From: a virus
Reading direction: 5' to 3' (one strand)
IMG/VR virus record: IMGVR_UViG_3300025769_000971
Span: 1-21,795 of that record
Length of the DNA stretch: 21,795 nucleotides
Part shown: piece after piece, positions 577 through 21,795 of the stretch
How the letters are laid out: every line of letters starts with the position of its first letter
Numbering within the stretch: position 1 is the first letter of the stretch
The notes under the pieces: generated by a model
Databases searched by the model: none
The model's input: the letters and a program-made list of their open reading frames with translations, nothing else
Told to the model about the DNA's origin: nothing
Translations under genes and position numbers: made by a program

Positions 577-608
577 TTGCATTGTATTAATATTTTATAC
601 TATATTTG
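577..608 (+). promoter_or_regulatory. Bacteroidota-type promoter before the small-gene insert
   Basis: A TATATTTG box at 601-608 matches the Bacteroidota -7 consensus TAnnTTTG, and CTTG at 576-579 lies 21 nt upstream as a possible -33 element. Transcription would start near 613, giving a roughly 23-nt leader to the ATG at 636. The ten bases 601-610 are identical to the minus-strand box before the ERF gene. Confidence 0.6.
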
Positions 609-619
609 TATTATAATAA

Positions 620-640
620 TAAAAACAATAACAAAATGAA
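620..640 (+). repeat. Shared leader repeat, copy 1
   Basis: These 21 bases, including the ATG at 636 and the next two bases, are identical to 839-859 around the second small gene. The segment is A-rich (core AAAAACAATAACAAAATG) and may act as a translation leader in place of a Shine-Dalgarno site. Confidence 0.8.
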
Positions 641-797
641 CAACACAATCACAGAAAAAACAAAAGTAATTAACAAGCTTGTTAAATGGGGACACAACTT
701 AGAAAATGCTTCAAAGTACACTAACGAACATTACGAGTATGCATCTAAGTACTATACTGGAGTATCTAAAATTGCTGAGGTAATAATGTCTTTATAA
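636..797 (+). CDS. 53-aa small protein, moron-like gene A
   Basis: A 53-residue protein of unknown function, mostly helical and hydrophilic, rich in Lys, Asn and Tyr (for example YASKYYTGVSK near residues 35-45). The frame is open back to 606, but that ATG lies inside the predicted promoter. The ATG at 636 follows an A-rich leader that is repeated before the next small gene, so 636 is the better start. It has its own promoter (577-608) and its own terminator (811-839), which is how morons, the extra independently expressed genes between phage structural genes, are organised. I do not recognise the protein. The coding call rests on the leader, the flanking signals and ordinary-looking amino acid composition. 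Confidence 0.6.
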   Translation: MNNTITEKTKVINKLVKWGHNLENASKYTNEHYEYASKYYTGVSKIAEVIMSL

Positions 798-810
798 AAT
801 AACAAATACA

Positions 811-839
811 AACCCTTCATCATATGGTGAGGGGTTTTT
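811..839 (+). terminator. Rho-independent terminator after moron-like gene A
   Basis: An 11-bp stem pairs 811-821 with 826-836, with two G-T wobbles and a 4-nt loop, and runs into TTTTT at 835-839. It lies 14 nt after the stop codon. The next gene's leader begins at its last T. Confidence 0.8.
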
Positions 840-859
840 AAAAACAATAACAAAATGAA
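839..859 (+). repeat. Shared leader repeat, copy 2
   Basis: Identical to 620-640. It begins in the T-run of the preceding terminator and ends in the first codons of the gene at 855. No separate promoter is visible, so expression may depend on read-through of the terminator. Confidence 0.8.
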
Positions 860-1001
860 TACATTTACAATTACATTCAAAAACAGATTAGGAGAAATTA
901 AAAAAGAGGAATTTTTTTTAGACTTTTATTCAGTACAAGCAGTATTTAATTGGTTTGAAGATACTTTTGCTACAAGACCTCAATCAATTTCAAAACACTA
1001 A
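855..1001 (+). CDS. 48-aa small protein, moron-like gene B
   Basis: A 48-residue open frame with an ATG at 855 and TAA at 999-1001. The product begins MNTFTITFKN and has an aromatic, amphipathic middle (FFLDFYSVQAVFNWF, residues 20-34) and a polar tail. The N-terminus could be a beta strand followed by a helix. It is placed after a copy of the same leader used by the gene at 636 and before its own terminator (1032-1057), which supports real expression. Function is unknown. The two small proteins share only the MN..TIT flavour of their N-termini, too little to call them paralogues. Confidence 0.5.
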   Translation: MNTFTITFKNRLGEIKKEEFFLDFYSVQAVFNWFEDTFATRPQSISKH

Positions 1002-1015
1002 CAATAAATAAACCC

Positions 1016-1029
1016 AAAACCTAAAACAA
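1016..1029 (+). repeat. 14-nt A-rich repeat before a terminator
   Basis: AAAACCTAAAACAA occurs here and at 7530-7543, each time just upstream of a terminator hairpin. It may be part of a recurring 3' end module, or a chance match in A-rich DNA. Confidence 0.5.
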
Positions 1030-1031
1030 TT

Positions 1032-1057
1032 AAACCTCCAGAGATGGGGGTTTTTTT
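1032..1057 (+). terminator. Rho-independent terminator after moron-like gene B
   Basis: ACCTCC (from 1034) pairs with GGGGGT (to 1051) with one wobble around the 6-nt loop AGAGAT, extended by AA/TT on the outside, and followed by seven T at 1051-1057. It separates the small-gene insert from the tail operon. Confidence 0.75.
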
Positions 1058-1077: not shown

Positions 1078-1094
1078 CTATTTTTGTATATATA
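1078..1094 (+). promoter_or_regulatory. Putative promoter of the tail operon
   Basis: TATTTTTG at 1079-1086 fits TAnnTTTG and is followed by TATATATA at 1087-1094, with the ATG at 1100. A clear -33 TTG is not seen. A similar arrangement (CTATTTTT then TATATATA then TAGATGG) precedes the capsid unit at 7626-7661. Confidence 0.5.
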
Positions 1095-1099
1095 AATAG

Positions 1100-2359
1100 A
1101 TGGCACTTACAATTCAAGACCAACCGACAACCAATATACCAGAGCCAAGCTTTGCTCCTATTGAGTATTTAGTTAGCAGCACAGAAACTGCTCAGAGTGG
1201 ATTCAAAGTTATAGCAAGTCTATTTACTGACCCAACTGGAGCAAATACTAAGATAGCTACTTTGCAGTTAAATACTATCCCCTCAGCTACACAAGTTGTA
1301 ACGGATATTCAAAATATTATACAATCGTTTGTAACGAGTGATTATTCTGTATTGGCTGGAGATACTATTGGGGTTTCTCAAAGTGCCTTAAAAGACTTTA
1401 AAATAGCATTTCAAGAGTATTATAGTGGTGCTTTACAAGGTAGTGCAGTAAGTGGCAATACTTTTACAAGTTGGAACTCATCTCCCAAGTATATTGAATG
1501 GGCTGATTTATCTGAGGGTTATAAAAAATACGAGAAATGGAAAGTAGAGGATTCTATTGCTAATAATGATGGCGAATTTTTAAATGGGTTTGAGCAGCAA
1601 GACGAGTGGTTTAATTTTAGCAGTAGTAATAATTTTGTAAGGGTTATGCCTACTCAGAAATATCAAACCTCTTGGATTATGAAGCCAAACAATTCAAGCA
1701 CATACCAAATCCATCTAAAGACCCTTGATTCTACCTTTACTGCTTTGACTACTTCTACATTATCTATACCCAATACAGAGAGCTTATATACTCTTGATAT
1801 AGGTTTAGCTGAATTAGATTCTCATAGCTGGAGTGTTACACCAAATACAACAGATTCTAAATATTATGCTCTTAGAATTTTAGACGTTACTAATGACTTT
1901 TGGGCTACAAATACAATAATGTTTGAAATTGATAGGTGCGAAAATACTTACACAGACTACGAGCTACATTGGTTAAACAGAAAGGGAGGATATGATAGCT
2001 ATACTTTTACTGGCAAATCAAATCAAGCAACAAGCATAAATAAGAACTTTGCTAAGTACAACACTCGTTCAATAGGAACAAGTAGCATAACTCATAATAC
2101 CTATGCACAACGTAAGAGAGCATTCCACACCTCTTTAAGAGACAATTACAGACTTAATAGTAGATTGCTAAAAGATTTTGAAGTTGAGGGCTTAGAGGAC
2201 TTGTTTTCATCTCCAGAGGTTTACTGGAAAAATGACGCTAATTTTGTTTCGGTTAATGTAACTGGCAATACTTTTGAACACGCTAAGAGTGAGAATGGTC
2301 AAGTGTATAGTATGGAGGTTAGTATGGAGATTGATAATAGCGATAAGCGACAATGGTAA
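1100..2359 (+). CDS. Putative tail structural protein (419 aa)
   Basis: A 419-residue protein, rich in Ser, Thr and Asn and apparently mostly beta strand, with no signal peptide or membrane segment, as expected for a virion component. The segment ELHWLNRKGGYDSYTFTGKS near residues 288-307 and the following basic RKRAFHTSL resemble a conserved family of Bacteroidota phage tail proteins. It begins the tail operon and overlaps the next gene by 7 nt, which suggests coupled expression with the 995-aa tail-tip-like protein. A distal tail (Dit-like) role is possible from its position next to the hub-like protein, but that is inference. The start is the first ATG after the promoter-like element. Confidence 0.5.
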   Translation: MALTIQDQPTTNIPEPSFAPIEYLVSSTETAQSGFKVIASLFTDPTGANTKIATLQLNTIPSATQVVTDIQNIIQSFVTSDYSVLAGDTIGVSQSALKDFKIAFQEYYSGALQGSAVSGNTFTSWNSSPKYIEWADLSEGYKKYEKWKVEDSIANNDGEFLNGFEQQDEWFNFSSSNNFVRVMPTQKYQTSWIMKPNNSSTYQIHLKTLDSTFTALTTSTLSIPNTESLYTLDIGLAELDSHSWSVTPNTTDSKYYALRILDVTNDFWATNTIMFEIDRCENTYTDYELHWLNRKGGYDSYTFTGKSNQATSINKNFAKYNTRSIGTSSITHNTYAQRKRAFHTSLRDNYRLNSRLLKDFEVEGLEDLFSSPEVYWKNDANFVSVNVTGNTFEHAKSENGQVYSMEVSMEIDNSDKRQW

Positions 2360-7514: not shown

Positions 7515-7529
7515 AAAAAACAAATAATT

Positions 7530-7543
7530 AAAACCTAAAACAA
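7530..7543 (+). repeat. 14-nt A-rich repeat before a terminator, copy 2
   Basis: Identical to 1016-1029 and again just upstream of a terminator. Confidence 0.5.
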
Positions 7544-7549
7544 ACAAAG

Positions 7550-7578
7550 CCCTTACAAAAATGTGAGGGTTTTTTTTT
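7550..7578 (+). terminator. Rho-independent terminator after the tape measure
   Basis: CCCTTACA at 7550-7557 pairs with TGTGAGGG at 7562-7569 (8 bp, one wobble) around the loop AAAA, followed by nine T at 7570-7578. It ends the tail operon. Confidence 0.9.
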
Positions 7579-7590
7579 GGACAAATAATG

Positions 7591-7652
7591 GACTATATAT
7601 AAAAAAGACTATATACTGCAATTTCCTATTTTTAGCTTATAGGGTATATATA
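7591..7652 (+). promoter_or_regulatory. Leader region of the capsid unit with possible promoter
   Basis: This stretch holds a direct repeat GACTATATA (7591-7599 and 7607-7615), then CTATTTTT at 7626-7633 and TATATATA at 7645-7652, five bases before the ATG at 7658. The last two elements mirror those before the tail operon at 1078-1094. The -7-like box here ends in A and not G, so the match to TAnnTTTG is imperfect. Confidence 0.35.
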
Positions 7653-7657
7653 GGTAG

Positions 7658-8797
7658 ATGGACTTACCTTTTATCGAATTTAAACTTACTGACGAGGTCG
7701 AGGGACTTCAAGCGATAGCTTTAGTAGACAGACCAGCAATAGGTCTAAACTATCAAGCATTTGCCCCACATAAATTTGAGGTAATTAACGAAGATAAGCG
7801 TATTGTGATGGGAGCTGCTATGATTCCAGACCTACCTATTTATCGTAGAGATGAGAGAGGCGAATATTACGCTATCTTCAAAAAAGAAACAATCAAAGCA
7901 CTTGTACAAAAGCTATTCAAAGAGAATAAGCACAACGTATTTAACGAAGAGCATAACGCTTTTAAGATACTTGATGGAGTATATATCTATCAATCCTTTA
8001 TAACTGATGCAGAGTTAGGCATTTCAGCTCCCTCTGGTTTTGAGAATGTAGCAGACGGAACTTGGTTTATCGCTGCTAAAGTAGAGAATGACGAGGCTTG
8101 GGCAAAGGTTAAAGAGGAAGGTATTTTAAAAGGGTTTAGTGTCGAGGGTGTATTTGACTTAGAGCCGTATAAATTTAAAAAGATGAATAAATTAAACTTA
8201 GAGAGTGTTATAAGCACTTTAAAATCTGTATTTTCAGATACTGAGGAAGCTACGGAGGTAAACTTCGGAGAGGCTACTTTAGTAGATGGGACTATTGTTA
8301 AATGGGAAGGCGAATTAGCTGACGGAACTGCTTTAGTAGTAGTTATGCCAGAGGGCGAAGTTGCTGCTCCAGATGGTATTCACGAATTATCAGATGGTAC
8401 TTTAATTGAAACTGCTGGAGGATTAGTAGTTAATATTGAGGCTGCTGCTGGACAAGAAAAAGAAGAGGAAGATGAAATGTACGACAATGAGTTTACTTCT
8501 GAGGAGTTAAACGCATTAATTGAAAAAGCAATGGCAAAATATGCTGAGGCTTTTACTGCTTCTTTGGAACTTGTTAAGTCTGAGAATGAAACCCTTAAAG
8601 CTGAATTGGCTGAGGTTAAGAATGCTAAAGACGAGTTAAAAAATGAGTTTTCTGCGACACTCAACAAAGTCGGAGAGGAATTAGAGGAAATTGTTAAGGC
8701 TGAGCCGTCAACATCTTCTAAGCCACAAGAATTTAAAGCACTTACAAGAGCTGAGAGAGCTGCTCAAATGGGTGCTATTATAAGAGCAAATAAATAA
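7658..8797 (+). CDS. XkdF-like prohead protease fused to scaffold
   Basis: A 379-residue protein. Residues about 45-170 resemble the XkdF-type phage serine protease domain: VMGAAMIPD near 50, EEH with His99, GTWFIAAKVENDEAW near 134-148 and GFSVEG with Ser161. By analogy His99 and Ser161 are candidate catalytic residues. Residues about 205-260 hold a short beta-rich insert with repeated DGT turns, and 265-350 form an acidic coiled coil typical of scaffold or delta domains. The protein would template capsid assembly and then cleave itself and capsid components. It directly precedes the major capsid gene, the usual arrangement. An internal ATG near residue 274 could allow a separate scaffold product. 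Confidence 0.75.
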   Translation: MDLPFIEFKLTDEVEGLQAIALVDRPAIGLNYQAFAPHKFEVINEDKRIVMGAAMIPDLPIYRRDERGEYYAIFKKETIKALVQKLFKENKHNVFNEEHNAFKILDGVYIYQSFITDAELGISAPSGFENVADGTWFIAAKVENDEAWAKVKEEGILKGFSVEGVFDLEPYKFKKMNKLNLESVISTLKSVFSDTEEATEVNFGEATLVDGTIVKWEGELADGTALVVVMPEGEVAAPDGIHELSDGTLIETAGGLVVNIEAAAGQEKEEEDEMYDNEFTSEELNALIEKAMAKYAEAFTASLELVKSENETLKAELAEVKNAKDELKNEFSATLNKVGEELEEIVKAEPSTSSKPQEFKALTRAERAAQMGAIIRANK

Positions 8798-8812: not shown

Positions 8813-9748
8813 ATGAGTTTTGATGTATCAAGTTTAACTAATTACGTTAACGAACAATCGACAGACCTTATCTCAAGACTATACTTTGAGAAAACGTCCA
8901 GCGACTACTTCACGCTGCAATCTGGGGTAAAGAAAACTGATGCTTTGCATCTATTGGCAGTAACTGCTTTTCCTCAAGATGGTTCATCTTGTGCAGTAAG
9001 TGCTTCTGGTGATGTAACTTTCTCAGACAGAAACCTTACAGTAGGACAAATTACTTACTTCTCTGGTTTTTGTATGAAAGACCTTATCCCTAAGTACACT
9101 CAAATCTTGCTTAGAGCTGGAAATGGAGAGACTGAAGAGATGGCTTTCGAAGCTGAGGTTGCTGAATCTGTAATTAAAACAATTATGGAGCATAACGAGG
9201 TTGCTGACTGGCAAGGAGATACTGCTTCTGCTAATGTTTATATTAACAGATATGATGGTTTAATTAAAACTATTGACGCTGCTACTACTGCCGTAGATGG
9301 TAACACCTCTTCTGCTACTGCAATCACTTCTGGTGCTTCTGGTAACATTGATGGATTGATTACTGATATTTGTAATGCACGACCAGCAAAAGTTAAGTCT
9401 GCTGCTAATCAAGTATTATTCGTAGGTCAAGATACTTTTGACAAATACGTAGATACTTTAAACGCTAAAAACCTATACCACATTAATGCTACTGATTGGG
9501 CTAATTACGAGACTTCAATCGCTGGTAAAAATGTAACTTTAGTAGGTGTTGCTGGATTAGACGGAACTAACAGAATGTTCTTGGGTACTAAAGATAACTT
9601 TTTCTTAGGATTCGACTTACAAGGAGATGACGAAGAGTTTGATATGTGGTACGACAAGAAAGACGATAAGGTATATTACCGAGTTAAATTTAAGAGAGGA
9701 TTACAAGTAGCATACCCAGATGAGATAGTTGAATTTACATTAGTCTAA
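8813..9748 (+). CDS. Major capsid protein (HK97 fold)
   Basis: A 311-residue protein directly after the protease/scaffold gene. It has the layout of a Bacteroidota phage HK97-fold capsid protein: an N-terminal helical arm, a strand-rich region near residues 60-90, a long helix at about 105-130 (EEMAFEAEVAESVIKTIMEH) as the spine helix, and a C-terminal region ending in YYRVKFKRGLQVAYPDEIVEF. It has no signal peptide. It should form the icosahedral shell around the packaged DNA. Alternative starts are not needed: the ATG at 8813 follows the scaffold stop by 15 nt and the leader motif at 8797. Assignment rests on length, position and characteristic C-terminus. Confidence 0.8.
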   Translation: MSFDVSSLTNYVNEQSTDLISRLYFEKTSSDYFTLQSGVKKTDALHLLAVTAFPQDGSSCAVSASGDVTFSDRNLTVGQITYFSGFCMKDLIPKYTQILLRAGNGETEEMAFEAEVAESVIKTIMEHNEVADWQGDTASANVYINRYDGLIKTIDAATTAVDGNTSSATAITSGASGNIDGLITDICNARPAKVKSAANQVLFVGQDTFDKYVDTLNAKNLYHINATDWANYETSIAGKNVTLVGVAGLDGTNRMFLGTKDNFFLGFDLQGDDEEFDMWYDKKDDKVYYRVKFKRGLQVAYPDEIVEFTLV

Positions 9749-10355: not shown

Positions 10356-10718
10356 ATGGACATAATTAATAAGGATACCACAAATTATATTTATTGTAAC
10401 ATCTCTAACGAAGTTGAGAATACTTACTACACTATGACCATTGAAAGTGCTGAGTACGAAGTTAATGTTACTTTAGCAGCTCCAGAAGGAGTAAATGATA
10501 GGTATGTAGCATTTGAATTAATAGAAGGCACACAAGACCTCACAAACGCTACAATAGAACTACCTAACAACGGAGATTATCCGTATAAGATAATAAACGC
10601 CACTACGCTGGGAGGAACTGAGGGGATTGAAATTCACAGAGGCATATTAAGATTGAAACAACCACAAGAAGTCGTATATTCGTACACAGACGAACAAAAT
10701 ACTTACATATATGAATAA
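10356..10718 (+). CDS. Hypothetical beta-rich protein before the portal
   Basis: A 120-residue protein of unknown function. It appears to be a single beta-sandwich, with alternating polar and hydrophobic residues, the segment RYVAFELIEGTQDLTNATIELPNNGDY at about 49-75 broken by turns, and EIHRGILRL near 92-100. It is acidic and has no signal peptide. The gene starts right after a terminator and overlaps the portal start by 8 nt, so it is probably translated together with the portal and may be a virion accessory or decoration protein. That role is inferred from position only. How it is transcribed is unclear, because no promoter fits between the terminator and the start. Confidence 0.65.
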   Translation: MDIINKDTTNYIYCNISNEVENTYYTMTIESAEYEVNVTLAAPEGVNDRYVAFELIEGTQDLTNATIELPNNGDYPYKIINATTLGGTEGIEIHRGILRLKQPQEVVYSYTDEQNTYIYE

Positions 10719-13191
10719 GTTTCCAATAGTAACGGAATTTGCTTCACAAGAAGTGCCTAAATTCTTAGAGAAAAAAAATAAAAATATAGTTTGGTTTGGG
10801 GCAGATAATATGTACCCTTACGAGCTAATAGACCTATATAATGATAGTAGCACTCATAACGCTATTATTAATGGTAAAGTAGGCTATACTGTTGGTAATG
10901 GATTAGAGGGAGAGGATTTAGAGACTAAGAAATGGTTAAGCCAAGCTAATATAGACCAAGATTGGACTTCTTTAATGAAGAGTTTGTCATTAGATTATGA
11001 GATATTTAATGGCTATGCTATTGAGGTAATTAGAACTAAGGTGGGTAACCAGTATCATCATATAGATTTTGCTAATATTAGGTTAGGATTAGACGGCAGT
11101 ATACAATATGCTGATGATTGGATTACTGATAAGGGTTTAAAGAACTCAAAACCAAGTATTCAGTATTTAGAGAGATATAATCCAAGAGATGCAGAGCAAA
11201 AAAGAGGGGTTATTTACCACGTTGATTATAGACCTAACCTTAAATACTACCCTTTACCAGTTTATGTAGGTTCATTAGCTGAGATTAAAACGGATGTTCA
11301 AATTGGAGATTATTGGCTTAATGAGGTAGAGAATGGCTTTGTAGGTGGAACGTTAATACAACATAATAACGGAGTACCAGAAACCAAAGAGGAGGCAGAA
11401 AAATTCGAGAAAGCATTTCAAGAGAAATTTGGTAAGGCTACTGGCACTAAAATAGTACACTTATTTAGCCCAGCTAAAGACAATAGTAGCGAGATTACGA
11501 GCCTTAATGGTAACGATTTACACGAAAGATATATAGAGATGTCTAAGCGTGTTAAAGAATCTATTTTTATTGGGCATAGAGTTACTAACCCTATCTTATT
11601 TGGTGTAAAAGAAGAGGGGCAATTAGGTGCAAGAAACGAGCTTGACTTAGCATATGAGATATTTACTAATACTTATATCGCTGAACGTCAAAATACGCTC
11701 CTTAGAACTATCAAAAAATTAGCTTTTTACGAGATACAAAGAACAGATATTGAGATTATACCACTTAAACCTATTGATGTTATTGATTTAACAAGTGATA
11801 TTATCTTAGCTAACCTTGATAGAGAGGAAATTAGAGAGCTTATTACTGACCAAACTGGATTAGAGCTTAAAGAGGCTATCGAAGAGCCAGTAGAAAGTAA
11901 TTTTGTAAAGCCAAAAGCTGGAGAGGAACACGACCCTTTTATGGGTAGATGTATTTCTAAACTCGTAGGCGAAGAGGGCTATGAGCAAGACCAAGCCTCA
12001 GCAATATGTCATACTTATTGGGAGGATGTACACGGAGAAACTAAAATGTCAGATTTTCAAGAGAATGACAAAGAGATGGTAGACGGTATAATCGAACTAT
12101 TGCTAAAAGTAGAGGATTTAGAAAACCGTAAAAAGATGGTTTTAGACACTTTAAGAGACTTTGACGAGGAAGGTGTTGTATATGATAAGGAAGATTTTTT
12201 AAATAGAGTGGGGATAACTTTAGAGGGGTTTAACCATATAACTAAATTTGATACCTATAACGATTATCCTAAAGCAGCGAGTAGAAACGCACAGACTGCT
12301 CTAAATTGGGCAGAAAAAAACGGCTGGGGAAGTTGTGGTACTCCAGTAGGAAAAAAAAGAGCTAATCAACTTGCGAAGGGAGATAATATAAGCCGAGATA
12401 CGATAGCTCGTATGGCAGCTTTTGAACGACACAGAAAAAACTCTAAGAAAAAACTTGGAGATGGGTGTGGTCGTTTAATGTGGTTGGCTTGGGGAGGCGA
12501 TGAAGGTGTAGATTGGGCTAAGAGAAAGCTAAAACAGATAGATGCTGCTAAGATGTGTTCTTGTAGTAGCTTTTCTAAAGACGAAAATATAAGCCACTTA
12601 TTCAAAAATATAGGAGTATTGGAGAAAGATTACGAGGTAATAGATAGCTTCAATATTAATTTTGATACAGATGGAAGTCCTATTGAATTTGCAACGGAGG
12701 AGCAAGAAACAACACAAGAAGTATTAAACGCTTTAAAGAACAATCCTTTATTAACATCAGTTGAGTTAGCTACTTTGTTAGGATTAGAATTTGAGGAGCT
12801 TATAGGGGCTATAAATGTGCTTAAAACTGCTGAATTAATTACCATAGAGGGTAGTGCTTTAGGATTAACAGATGTAGGAGCAAGAATAGCAGATGCAATA
12901 GTATTGCCAGAGAGAGAAGTAAAGTATAGATATGAGCTTAGACCAGATGCACCAGCTTTATCAGAGGGGGGAAAGTCGAGAGATTTTTGTAAAGATATGA
13001 TGGCAATGGGTAGATTATGGTCAAAGCAAGAAATACAGACTGTGTTAGATAATGGTATGAAATCGAGTGGCATAGCAGATGTTACTAATGTTTGGTTGGC
13101 TCGTGGTGGTTGGTATAGACGACCAGATACAACTACCTCAGTACCTTATTGCCGACATATATGGAAACAATTAATAGTTAGAAAAAGATGA
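10711..13191 (+). CDS. Portal protein with several C-terminal extensions (826 aa)
   Basis: The first 390 residues look like a phage portal protein: NMYPYELIDLYNDSSTHNAII near 33-53, and a helical region with NPILFGVKEEGQLGARNELD at 293-312 followed by a long helix. Portals form the dodecameric ring through which DNA enters and leaves. Beyond this are extra modules: about 405-440 with CISKLV...EQDQASAICHTYW; about 517-613 with SCGTPVGKKRANQL, RDTIARM and WLAWGGDEGVDWAKRKL; a winged-helix-like segment at about 665-730; and 735-826 with RPDAPALSEGGKSRDFC, VWLARGGWYRRP and PYCRHIW. Typical portals are 400-550 residues, so this is a fusion. It shares ATGA with the next gene. Confidence 0.75.
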   Translation: MNKFPIVTEFASQEVPKFLEKKNKNIVWFGADNMYPYELIDLYNDSSTHNAIINGKVGYTVGNGLEGEDLETKKWLSQANIDQDWTSLMKSLSLDYEIFNGYAIEVIRTKVGNQYHHIDFANIRLGLDGSIQYADDWITDKGLKNSKPSIQYLERYNPRDAEQKRGVIYHVDYRPNLKYYPLPVYVGSLAEIKTDVQIGDYWLNEVENGFVGGTLIQHNNGVPETKEEAEKFEKAFQEKFGKATGTKIVHLFSPAKDNSSEITSLNGNDLHERYIEMSKRVKESIFIGHRVTNPILFGVKEEGQLGARNELDLAYEIFTNTYIAERQNTLLRTIKKLAFYEIQRTDIEIIPLKPIDVIDLTSDIILANLDREEIRELITDQTGLELKEAIEEPVESNFVKPKAGEEHDPFMGRCISKLVGEEGYEQDQASAICHTYWEDVHGETKMSDFQENDKEMVDGIIELLLKVEDLENRKKMVLDTLRDFDEEGVVYDKEDFLNRVGITLEGFNHITKFDTYNDYPKAASRNAQTALNWAEKNGWGSCGTPVGKKRANQLAKGDNISRDTIARMAAFERHRKNSKKKLGDGCGRLMWLAWGGDEGVDWAKRKLKQIDAAKMCSCSSFSKDENISHLFKNIGVLEKDYEVIDSFNINFDTDGSPIEFATEEQETTQEVLNALKNNPLLTSVELATLLGLEFEELIGAINVLKTAELITIEGSALGLTDVGARIADAIVLPEREVKYRYELRPDAPALSEGGKSRDFCKDMMAMGRLWSKQEIQTVLDNGMKSSGIADVTNVWLARGGWYRRPDTTTSVPYCRHIWKQLIVRKR

Positions 13192-19087: not shown

Positions 19088-19683
19088 AAGTTTGTTTTTA
19101 TAAATTCGTTCAATCTGGTGTAATCTTTTTTAAATTGTTTGTCGTACTGCATTAAGTCAGCAGCTTTTTGTATTGAGTGTATGACTGTCGAATGGTCACG
19201 ACCTCCTAAAGCAGCTCCAATAGTTTTAAGTGAGCTATTAGGCATATTATCTCTGGCAATATAACAAAACATTTGCCTACATATTACTTTCTCTCTATGT
19301 CTTTTAACGCCTTGTATCTCTCTTTGAGATATATTGTAGTATTTAGATATGCAGTTTAATAGCTTATCAAATGTAAGCCGACCTTTTAGTACACTATCCG
19401 TCTGCCATCCTCCCAGCTTTTCAATACCAGCAGCAGAATAATAAGAGGGCTTATCTTGTTTGGGGTAATATTTATATTTAATATCTCCACATTCATCTTG
19501 TACCATCACTTGTTCTATCTGACCCATCTTAACAAGGTCAGTTATTTTTCTATTTGCTTCTACCATACCTACCTTTCTGCATAGCCCTAAGATAGTATTT
19601 AGGTGGGTGTATCCTTTTTTAAGTGTATTGCGAATAAATAGGTAGTCTTGGTGTTCTGTTTTATAATGCTTTACTAATTCCAT
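19084..19683 (-). CDS. DnaA domain IV-type protein without AAA+ ATPase
   Basis: A 199-residue protein. The C-terminal part, about 103-180, is a clear DnaA domain IV, the DNA-binding domain that recognises DnaA boxes, with FDKLLNCISKYYNISQREI and the signature LGGRDHSTVIHSI at 159-171. The N-terminal 60 residues (YLFIRNTLKKGYTHLNTILGLCRK, then ANRKITDLVKMGQI) look like a winged helix. The AAA+ domain of host DnaA is absent. The protein could initiate phage replication, or bind host origin sites and interfere with host DnaA. It lies between the recombination exonuclease and a basic small protein, in a replication-type operon, with overlaps of 23 and 4 nt. Confidence 0.85.
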   Translation of the reverse strand: MELVKHYKTEHQDYLFIRNTLKKGYTHLNTILGLCRKVGMVEANRKITDLVKMGQIEQVMVQDECGDIKYKYYPKQDKPSYYSAAGIEKLGGWQTDSVLKGRLTFDKLLNCISKYYNISQREIQGVKRHREKVICRQMFCYIARDNMPNSSLKTIGAALGGRDHSTVIHSIQKAADLMQYDKQFKKDYTRLNEFIKTNL

Positions 19684-20272
19684 TGATATATTCTCTTGAT
19701 TGTTCTACTTTTAATTGCATCTCTTGCATAACCTCCTCATCATATTCTATGTCAAATGTCTTAATTCTATACTTACTGCTTATTTCTGAGTAGTCGTGGC
19801 TCTCCTCAAAGGTTAGCTCTTCTGGTGTGTTCATCAATACATAGACTAATTGAGCTTTTTTCTTTCCAGTTAGGTGCATATAAGTCTGAAGCTGGTAATA
19901 ATAGTCTTTATTTGGTATGCCATTATAGAATAAAGGAAAGCTAAAGCAGTCCCAACTTGATTTAATATCTATAATTCTATCCTCAAGTATAACATCTGGA
20001 GTACCACAAAAATATTCATCCTCAAAATACTCTTCGTTTTTCTCAGCGAATAACCAACCCTTCTCAGCAGAAGCGTATTTAATAGCTTCATCCTCAACTT
20101 CGTTTCCTTTGGTTAGATATTTAGATTGGATGTTTTTACGCACTCCGTATATCTGTTCTTTAGTCCACTCCTCTAAATATGATTTAGTAGTTTTAGACAA
20201 AACCTCACTCTTAGAACGAGGCTTTGTCATTAATTTACCAGAAGCAGAAGCTCTTATCTTAAATTCTTTCAT
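19661..20272 (-). CDS. YqaJ/RecB-like PD-(D/E)xK exonuclease
   Basis: A 203-residue nuclease of the YqaJ/RecB-like group. Motifs are KGNEVEDEAI near 55-64, GTPDVILEDRIIDIKSSWD at 90-108 with Asp93, Asp102 and Lys104 as the catalytic PD-(D/E)xK core, and YQLQTYMHLTG at 126-136 carrying the QxxxY motif (Gln127, Tyr131). Such enzymes resect DNA ends to expose single strands for an annealing protein, and the ERF gene lies immediately upstream with a 4-nt overlap. The two should act as a phage recombination pair. The 3' end overlaps the DnaA-like gene by 23 nt. Confidence 0.85.
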   Translation of the reverse strand: MKEFKIRASASGKLMTKPRSKSEVLSKTTKSYLEEWTKEQIYGVRKNIQSKYLTKGNEVEDEAIKYASAEKGWLFAEKNEEYFEDEYFCGTPDVILEDRIIDIKSSWDCFSFPLFYNGIPNKDYYYQLQTYMHLTGKKKAQLVYVLMNTPEELTFEESHDYSEISSKYRIKTFDIEYDEEVMQEMQLKVEQSREYINGISKAL

Positions 20273-20763
20273 TTGATAGGATATAATTCTGCGTTAATTC
20301 TACTTATGGAATAGTGTTTTTTTAGCTCTGTAAGGGTTACTCCTTTGTCTACTGCTGCACTCCATATCTTATCGTCTTTATTTACCCATTGTTTTTGACT
20401 TTTTGTAGCTTGACTGGCTGAATTTGCGTCATCATCTTCGGCTTGTAATCCTAATAATGATTGAAGCGTATATCTTCTATAATAAGTTACTGCCGAACCA
20501 AGTTTCTGTGGGTCATCCATTTGTGGAAGAGGTATTGAACTGGTTACGCTTTCTCCAGATTCAATATCAATAACCTCTGAGAATACTTCTCCCTTGATAA
20601 TAGGTTGTAACAATAGTAGCCCATTCTTTTGCAGTAATGGCTCAACGTGCTTTAGTAGCGAGTTAATGTCAAAGTACTTAGATTTAAAGAAGGGGTTTGT
20701 TGCGTCTTTAGAGATAGCTCCTATCTCTTTTTTGACCTCGTTTAGTTTTGTGTATAAATTCAT
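20269..20763 (-). CDS. erf: ERF-family single-strand annealing protein
   Basis: A 164-residue ERF-superfamily protein. The first 113 residues hold the family core: an N-terminal helix with LYTKLNEVKKEIGAISKD, FFKSKYFDINSLLKHVEPLL at 26-44, and the diagnostic LGSAVTYYRRYTLQSLLGLQAEDDDAN at 88-113. The remaining 50 residues are a lysine-rich linker and a short helical tail. ERF proteins bind single-stranded DNA and anneal complementary strands during phage recombination and repair. It heads the operon that continues with the exonuclease and replication protein. The TATATTTG box ends only 4 nt before the start codon, so the messenger may be leaderless. Confidence 0.9.
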   Translation of the reverse strand: MNLYTKLNEVKKEIGAISKDATNPFFKSKYFDINSLLKHVEPLLQKNGLLLLQPIIKGEVFSEVIDIESGESVTSSIPLPQMDDPQKLGSAVTYYRRYTLQSLLGLQAEDDDANSASQATKSQKQWVNKDDKIWSAAVDKGVTLTELKKHYSISRINAELYPIK

Positions 20764-21580: not shown

Positions 21581-21795
21581 TTAAAATGATTGTATTATAA
21601 ATTGTCCTTTATCGCCAAAAGCATAATAGTTTGTAGCATCCATAATGCTCTCTTCGTCTGGATAATCCTCTTGGTCGTAATCTAACCAAAACTCTTCTAT
21701 ATTATCATACTCGATATACTCGCAACATAAAGCTATAACGTCAAGCTCTATCTCTTCTCCAGTACATTCTTCGTATTCTTCTAAGTAGTCAAATA
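21581..21795 (-). CDS. Partial, extremely acidic small protein
   Basis: The C-terminal 70 residues of a gene that enters from the right edge; the start lies outside the window. Of these 70 residues about 23 are Asp or Glu and only one is Lys, with no Arg. The segment begins FDYLEEYEECTGEEIELDVIA and closes GDKGQFIIQSF. The charge pattern suggests a surface like that of DNA-mimic proteins, but I recognise no named family and the pattern also occurs in unrelated small phage proteins. It is followed after 4 nt by the 49-aa membrane protein, so it belongs to the same operon. Confidence 0.6.
   Translation of the reverse strand, partial: FDYLEEYEECTGEEIELDVIALCCEYIEYDNIEEFWLDYDQEDYPDEESIMDATNYYAFGDKGQFIIQSF

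Follow-up and report, generated by a model that had tools for sequence, protein, structure and literature searches.

The PeSL cassettes of T4-like phages, credited to Arbiol 2010 and Comeau 2014 (both cited in PMC4503421), reportedly surround small genes of plastic regions with a conserved promoter and stem-loop, and gene shuffling is their proposed role. Morons lie singly between phage genes, each equipped with a promoter and a terminator (PMC2147016). The start-associated sequences of cluster K mycobacteriophages are 13-bp sequences around a Shine-Dalgarno core that occur in 11–19 copies per genome, in the non-structural half (PMC3203893). Lambdoid phages have boundary sequences, which are, as summarized in PMC3029335, short sequences shared at gene borders and proposed as sites of homologous module exchange (Susskind and Botstein 1978; Clark 2001).

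The region described here, positions 577–1057 of a 21,795-nucleotide stretch of viral DNA (hereafter, the window), belongs to a set of slots for tiny genes that work like morons and PeSL cassettes. Like a moron, the slot separates two genes that are direct neighbors in relatives, and it has its own promoter motif (for its first gene, ORF1, only), terminator, and low GC content. The GC content of 25.5% is near the lowest of any 541-nt stretch in the window (median 34.4%), which is a weak test of unusual composition because the slot is partly intergenic. Insertion, own promoter motif, own terminator, and unusual base composition are the testable moron features; all were found, and with relatives that lack the insert, they bear out the original prediction that it is moron-like. 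Unlike in morons, the expression signals are common to unrelated genes and to three sites, and tandem cassettes lie behind one promoter. As in PeSL cassettes, a conserved promoter and stem-loop flank the exchanged ORFs; however, the shared unit here comprises promoter, leader, and start codon on the 5′ side and a terminator on the 3′ side, no promoter (no TAnnTTTG) follows the stem-loop between tandem cassettes, and the slots mark operon borders both among the virion genes and in the early region. The phage is also a small non-T4 phage, whose portal and other genes match PHROGs with no T4-like match seen. Two defining PeSL features, a promoter between tandem ORFs and a T4-like genome, are therefore absent. 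The start-associated sequences are similar in that a short repeat directly precedes the starts of unrelated genes (16 families here), but the leader described below, AAAAACAATAACAAA, has no GGGATAGGAGCCC-type core, is A-rich, comes with a promoter, and occupies three slots. The lambdoid boundary sequences, to the extent that they are covered in the citing paper, are likewise short common sequences at gene borders proposed as exchange sites, whereas here the expression signals themselves form the borders, and the units exchanged are single tiny genes.

In the window, the slot lies on the plus strand between two virion-region genes, one of 178 aa on the left (22–558), which weakly matches a PHROG with no assigned function, and one of 419 aa on the right (1100–2359). 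The element TATATTTG (601–608) fits TAnnTTTG, as originally proposed, a Bacteroidetes promoter motif of the −7 type; it is homologous to the early-operon promoter and sits 35 nt upstream of the ORF1 ATG. A first copy of the leader (620–640) runs into the start codon of ORF1 (636–797, 53 aa), an orphan small gene, which is followed by terminator 1 (810–838), a hairpin at 810–837 (−16.7 kcal/mol, z −4.9) with a short T-run. The second leader copy (839–859) begins within this T-run and runs into the start codon of ORF2 (855–1001), which encodes a 48-aa protein predicted to fold as beta-beta-alpha-beta. Downstream are AACCTAAAACAA (1018–1029), a 3′ flank common to slots A and B (see below), and terminator 2 (1032–1057), with a hairpin at 1032–1053 (−11.9 kcal/mol, z −3.2) and a T-run. 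The virion operon that comes next has its late-type leader, GTATATATANNTAGATGG, at 1086–1103. The two leader copies are exactly identical over 21 bases, TAAAAACAATAACAAAATGAA, and both genes start at the ATG of the repeat. With up to three mismatches allowed, the repeat 20-mer has two sites in the 21,795 bases, compared with 0.03 expected. Thus, the layout read from the sequence in the original prediction stood: a 21-base segment that includes both start codons and recurs nowhere else in the window, genes of 53 and 48 aa that are not clearly related (ORF1 and ORF2 are separate families), a terminator after each, and a second leader that starts in the T-run of the first terminator. The idea that both genes are independently expressed was not supported, since ORF2 lacks a promoter motif of its own. 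No TAnnTTTG was found between ORF1 and ORF2 of the window, nor in the two-gene slots of L002, L010, L005, and L003. ORF2 is therefore not an independently promoted unit, and its expression probably needs read-through of terminator 1.

To see what occupies this site elsewhere, we used the right-hand gene to find relatives in IMG/VR, which gave 36 loci, 35 of them with the junction visible. The neighbors of the site, hereafter slot A, are conserved (left 45–100% identical, right 75–93%), and the slot itself is hypervariable: it is empty, contains an RNA-like element, or carries one or two tiny genes. The genes differ behind a promoter, leader, and start codon, and ahead of a terminator, that hardly change; all-against-all blastp sorts the small ORFs of slot A, including those of the window, into 18 protein families. 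The original prediction had called for a search for different genes behind the same leader in related phages, and IMG/VR provided them; its proposal that the leader is kept as a cassette is supported by these unrelated genes changing behind a constant leader. Seven loci (L011, L012, L014, L033, and L035–L037) have an empty slot A of 45–59 bp, and L022 has a promoter, an RNA-like element, and a terminator with no ORF. The core leader is present within one mismatch in 18 of 29 filled slots (window counted) and is variant or different in the other 11, with none in L013 and the L023–L028 group. Of 30 slots tested across A, B, and C (window included), 22 have TAnnTTTG 27–40 nt upstream of the first ATG. 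The distance is 125 nt in four more, because an 83-nt element intervenes, and 16 nt in three of the L023–L028 group; the motif was not found in the L013 slot. In the 3′ part of slot A of L015, L018, L019, L021, and L077, ACGTATGAAAAAGTGGAAGCCCCACAAGTAATACGTTTAGAAAGCCCTCAG, with ACGTAT/ATACGT ends, precedes the last terminator.

The leader is shared far more closely than the genes it precedes. Over positions −20 to −1, the leaders of 16 unrelated families have a mean identity of 76%, whereas other window genes average 34% and base composition predicts 52%; chance similarity of A-rich leaders was rejected on this basis. The similarity continues into the genes, where codons 2–6 are 52% identical (37% for other genes), and drops to 32% at codons 12–21. 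In IMG/VR, the 22-nt leader is found in this lineage only, and all 14 stretches that carry it have it in slot A, B, or C. A shorter 17-nt form adds matches that are mostly chance, in unrelated phages, and the 22-nt form is therefore the specific marker.

This same leader stands before unrelated genes at three operon boundaries: slot A, slot B between the tape-measure gene and the protease gene, and slot C at the first position of the early operon. Slot B contains no gene in the window (7515–7657, plus strand) but keeps AACCTAAAACAA (7532–7543), a terminator hairpin (7546–7573), and a second late-type leader; it is filled in L039, L088, L089, and L094. Slot C is represented by the end part of a variable first early-operon gene (21581–21793, minus strand), which belongs to the same family as the slot C gene of L188 and whose leader is beyond the window end. 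Families are shared between slots: F6 (104–108 aa) occurs in slot A (L034), slot B (L094, behind a different leader), and slot C (L182 and L183), and F8 occurs in slots A and B. In most comparisons, slot A and slot C promoters align better than shuffled controls. The late-type leader GTATATATANNTAGATGG has only two copies in the window (1086–1103 and 7644–7661), each exactly before a virion operon; it is less far from chance, with two loose matches reached in 11 of 100 shuffles, and is a candidate late promoter or leader of the lineage. Because slots A and B both end at GTATATATANNTAGATGG, the early-type cassettes sit at late-operon borders.

Two RNA-like elements, of about 83–94 and 330 nt, are shared by slots A and C and immediately follow the promoter. 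The shorter one is found in slot A of L022 (4281–4374), L030 (2681–2774), and L031 (4579–4672) and in slot C of L041 (5975–6068), L184 (2214–2307), L185 (2023–2116), and L200 (2028–2118). It is 96–100% identical between the two slots and is closed by AAAAGGG/CCCTTTT plus a T-run. It had no Rfam match, and its folding energy (one sequence) was not unusual; a role as a regulatory RNA for the early promoter is possible. The 330-nt non-coding element, in slot A of L028 (4347–4700) and slot C of L193 (1958–2283) and of L186, L187, and L189 (1846–2171), is 88–92% identical between the slots and is a candidate structured RNA. An Rfam search of the window and slots, this element included, gave no match. 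Upstream of the protease gene, slot B of L112, L115, L117, and L118 has a conserved stretch of ~280–360 nt without an ORF, a candidate for a further RNA.

Pairs of closely related loci locate the joins. The left flank of the window differs from that of L034 at 2 of 550 nt, yet their cassettes are unrelated. Likewise, L007 and L032 (flanks 98.8% and 95.0% identical) and L015 and L018 (98.3% and 96.8%) have different genes inside. In such pairs, identity runs through the promoter and leader to or near the start codon, breaks off there, and returns only in the 3′ flank and terminator. Chimeric pairs place the join in the first codons: ORF2 of L002 and the L021 gene have the leader and 11 nearly identical codons (…TIKQPKEM) in common and nothing beyond, and ORF2 of L003 and the L088 gene have about eight codons in common.

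The tandem state can be followed in the same way. Aligned with L165, the end of another contig, the window differs by exactly the 219 bases between the repeats (620–838, plus strand), which L165 lacks. This state would be expected as the product of recombination between both leaders or as the parent of an insertion; it is also possibly an assembly join, given that 126 nt separate the start of the repeat from the contig end. Two loci, L004 and L007, have ORF2 by itself immediately after the leader; in L010, ORF2 is the second gene, behind a terminator of the same type as terminator 1, with no amino-acid difference from ORF2 of L007. The type-1 terminator hairpin also closes the single cassette of L034. 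The cassette is therefore leader plus ORF plus terminator. Tandem arrangements with other genes occur in L002 and L010.

Based on these comparisons, we consider it likely that 577–1057 is one of at least three exchangeable slots, in a joint reading that includes swapping by recombination, read-through, and early host-directed genes. In this reading, a filled slot has an early-type TAnnTTTG promoter and, in most cases, the common A-rich leader that extends into the start codon; one or two tiny genes follow, with hairpin terminators. The surrounding parts would stay while the genes inside are swapped, added, or lost. Annealing would take place at two shared regions, the promoter-leader-ATG block ahead of the gene and the 3′ flank with its terminator behind it, between co-infecting relatives or, alternatively, between repeats (the two leaders) within one genome. 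The phage's own ERF annealing protein and exonuclease would carry out the joins. Both are encoded on the minus strand of the window: an ERF-type single-strand annealing protein (20269–20763; Pfam PF04404, E 4.5e-23; also by PHROGs) and its partner, a RecE/YqaJ-type exonuclease (19661–20272; phrog_5715, E 1.8e-58; 45.5% identity to a YqaJ-annotated gene of P12024S). ERF/Exo pairs efficiently recombine diverged sequences, and related Red functions use short homologies (PMC3945230). The presence of this pair points to short-homology recombination at the shared flanks as the likely swap mechanism, and host recombination, or illegitimate joining followed by selection, could give similar patterns. 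A single promoter would serve both cassettes, with ORF2 reached through terminator 1, and with two cassettes in tandem, the 21-base repeat would be the seam between them. More tentatively, and with less than even odds in our estimation, the promoter-leader-ATG block and 3′ flank may be maintained as exchange handles, through which a tiny-gene pool of the phage population is moved among three docking sites by the phage's own annealing recombinase. If so, the handles would amount to integron-like gene capture without a site-specific integrase, and an incoming gene would be expressed at once because the handle is the expression signal.

Other explanations account for parts of this pattern. The leader could be kept only as a good ribosome landing site, with genes arriving by illegitimate recombination and selection in the absence of Shine-Dalgarno pairing making or keeping an A-rich leader. 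Flavobacterium translation does favor little structure near the start and an A at positions −3 and −6 (PMC6847099), and the leader is 69% A. However, the other window genes do without it, the composition effect gives 52% identity and not the observed 76%, and the 22-nt form is restricted to a single lineage, at three sites. The common block, moreover, spans promoter, leader, and first codons and then ends suddenly. We therefore regard this explanation as unlikely, and the leader as a pure translation signal was rejected since the sudden identity ends, the three-site confinement, and the leader length are left unexplained.

A duplication in this phage, in which the leader was copied once (with or without a gene) as a local accident, would account for two exact copies 219 bases apart, but we give it almost no credence: the two proteins are unrelated and in separate families, the same tandem occurs with other genes in L002 and L010, and the leader is present in two other slots. 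Simple tandem duplication was rejected because relatives contradict it: in L004 and L007, the leader is followed by ORF2 only. It is also quite improbable that the slot serves chiefly as a border between transcription units or as a site for non-coding RNA, insulating early from late transcription, with tiny ORFs of little importance. Slots A and B are indeed at operon boundaries, L022 has its RNA element with no ORF, and slot B of the window retains only 3′ flank and terminator; against this, several slot families are under purifying selection (F9, pN/pS 0.10; F6, 0.22–0.35; F15, 0.21), and empty slots of 45–59 bp with neither promoter nor terminator occur.

The coding status of the two window genes differs in its support. 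Frames like those of ORF1 and ORF2 are open by chance in about 1–4% of shuffles (ORF1 about 1%). ORF1 has no homologue in IMG/VR, so its coding status rests on position and open frame. ORF2 has homologues whose pN/pS is mostly 0.25–0.6, which supports coding. The members of the ORF2 family found here are from phages only; those outside the lineage (L168–L180) lie mostly beside other tiny genes, without the leader. Neither the ORF2 family nor the neighbor gene matched GTDB genome contigs, and ORF2 and F6 had no match in named phages. For the defense, counter-defense, or exclusion functions considered in the original prediction, the slot proteins tested gave no functional match in Pfam, PHROGs, or NCBIfam, and 10 slot proteins had no PADLOC match to known anti-phage defense. 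The ORF2 model is a beta-beta-alpha-beta fold (pLDDT 96) with weak fold matches, the best in PDB at E 0.17, with phi29 p56 at E 0.55 and T7 Gp2 at TM 0.61/0.58 and E 0.86. Matches in BFVD have a best E of 0.007 and include a protein named RNA polymerase inhibitor (TM 0.77, E 0.02). The predicted shape may, on weak grounds, be that of some small beta-beta-alpha-beta phage inhibitors (T7 Gp2, phi29 p56, and T4 Dmd). F6, the family found in all three slots, had no usable Foldseek match. Based on the early-type promoters and on relatives among the small genes of other phages, we see about an even chance that the slot genes act early on the host, in takeover or counter-defense.

Few matches came from named phages. 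A DNA search with 577–1057 gave no match in named phages, nor did the right-hand neighbor gene or the structural gene at 8813. The tape measure matches, among named phages, only Nonlabens phages P12024S/L and one Bacteroides phage, and the leader was not found in P12024S. The promoter type and the distant tape-measure match to Nonlabens phages suggest that this is probably a marine tailed phage lineage infecting Flavobacteriia. The portal gene (10711–13191) is unusually long (826 aa), and its C-terminal half carries a separate domain that matches phrog_2859, a possible fusion.

Altogether, in these uncultivated marine bacterial viruses, an on-switch and an end-signal stay fixed between big genes while tiny genes are exchanged, added, or lost. 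The 22-nt leader is a sequence marker for where this marine phage lineage stores its fast-changing small genes, the class for which action on the host or its defenses is most likely; this stock of quickly changing genes is probably host-directed. The joints of exchange are visible, with fixed expression signals, joins in the first codons, and empty, single, and tandem states, and the question of short shared boundaries in phage mosaicism therefore becomes directly testable.
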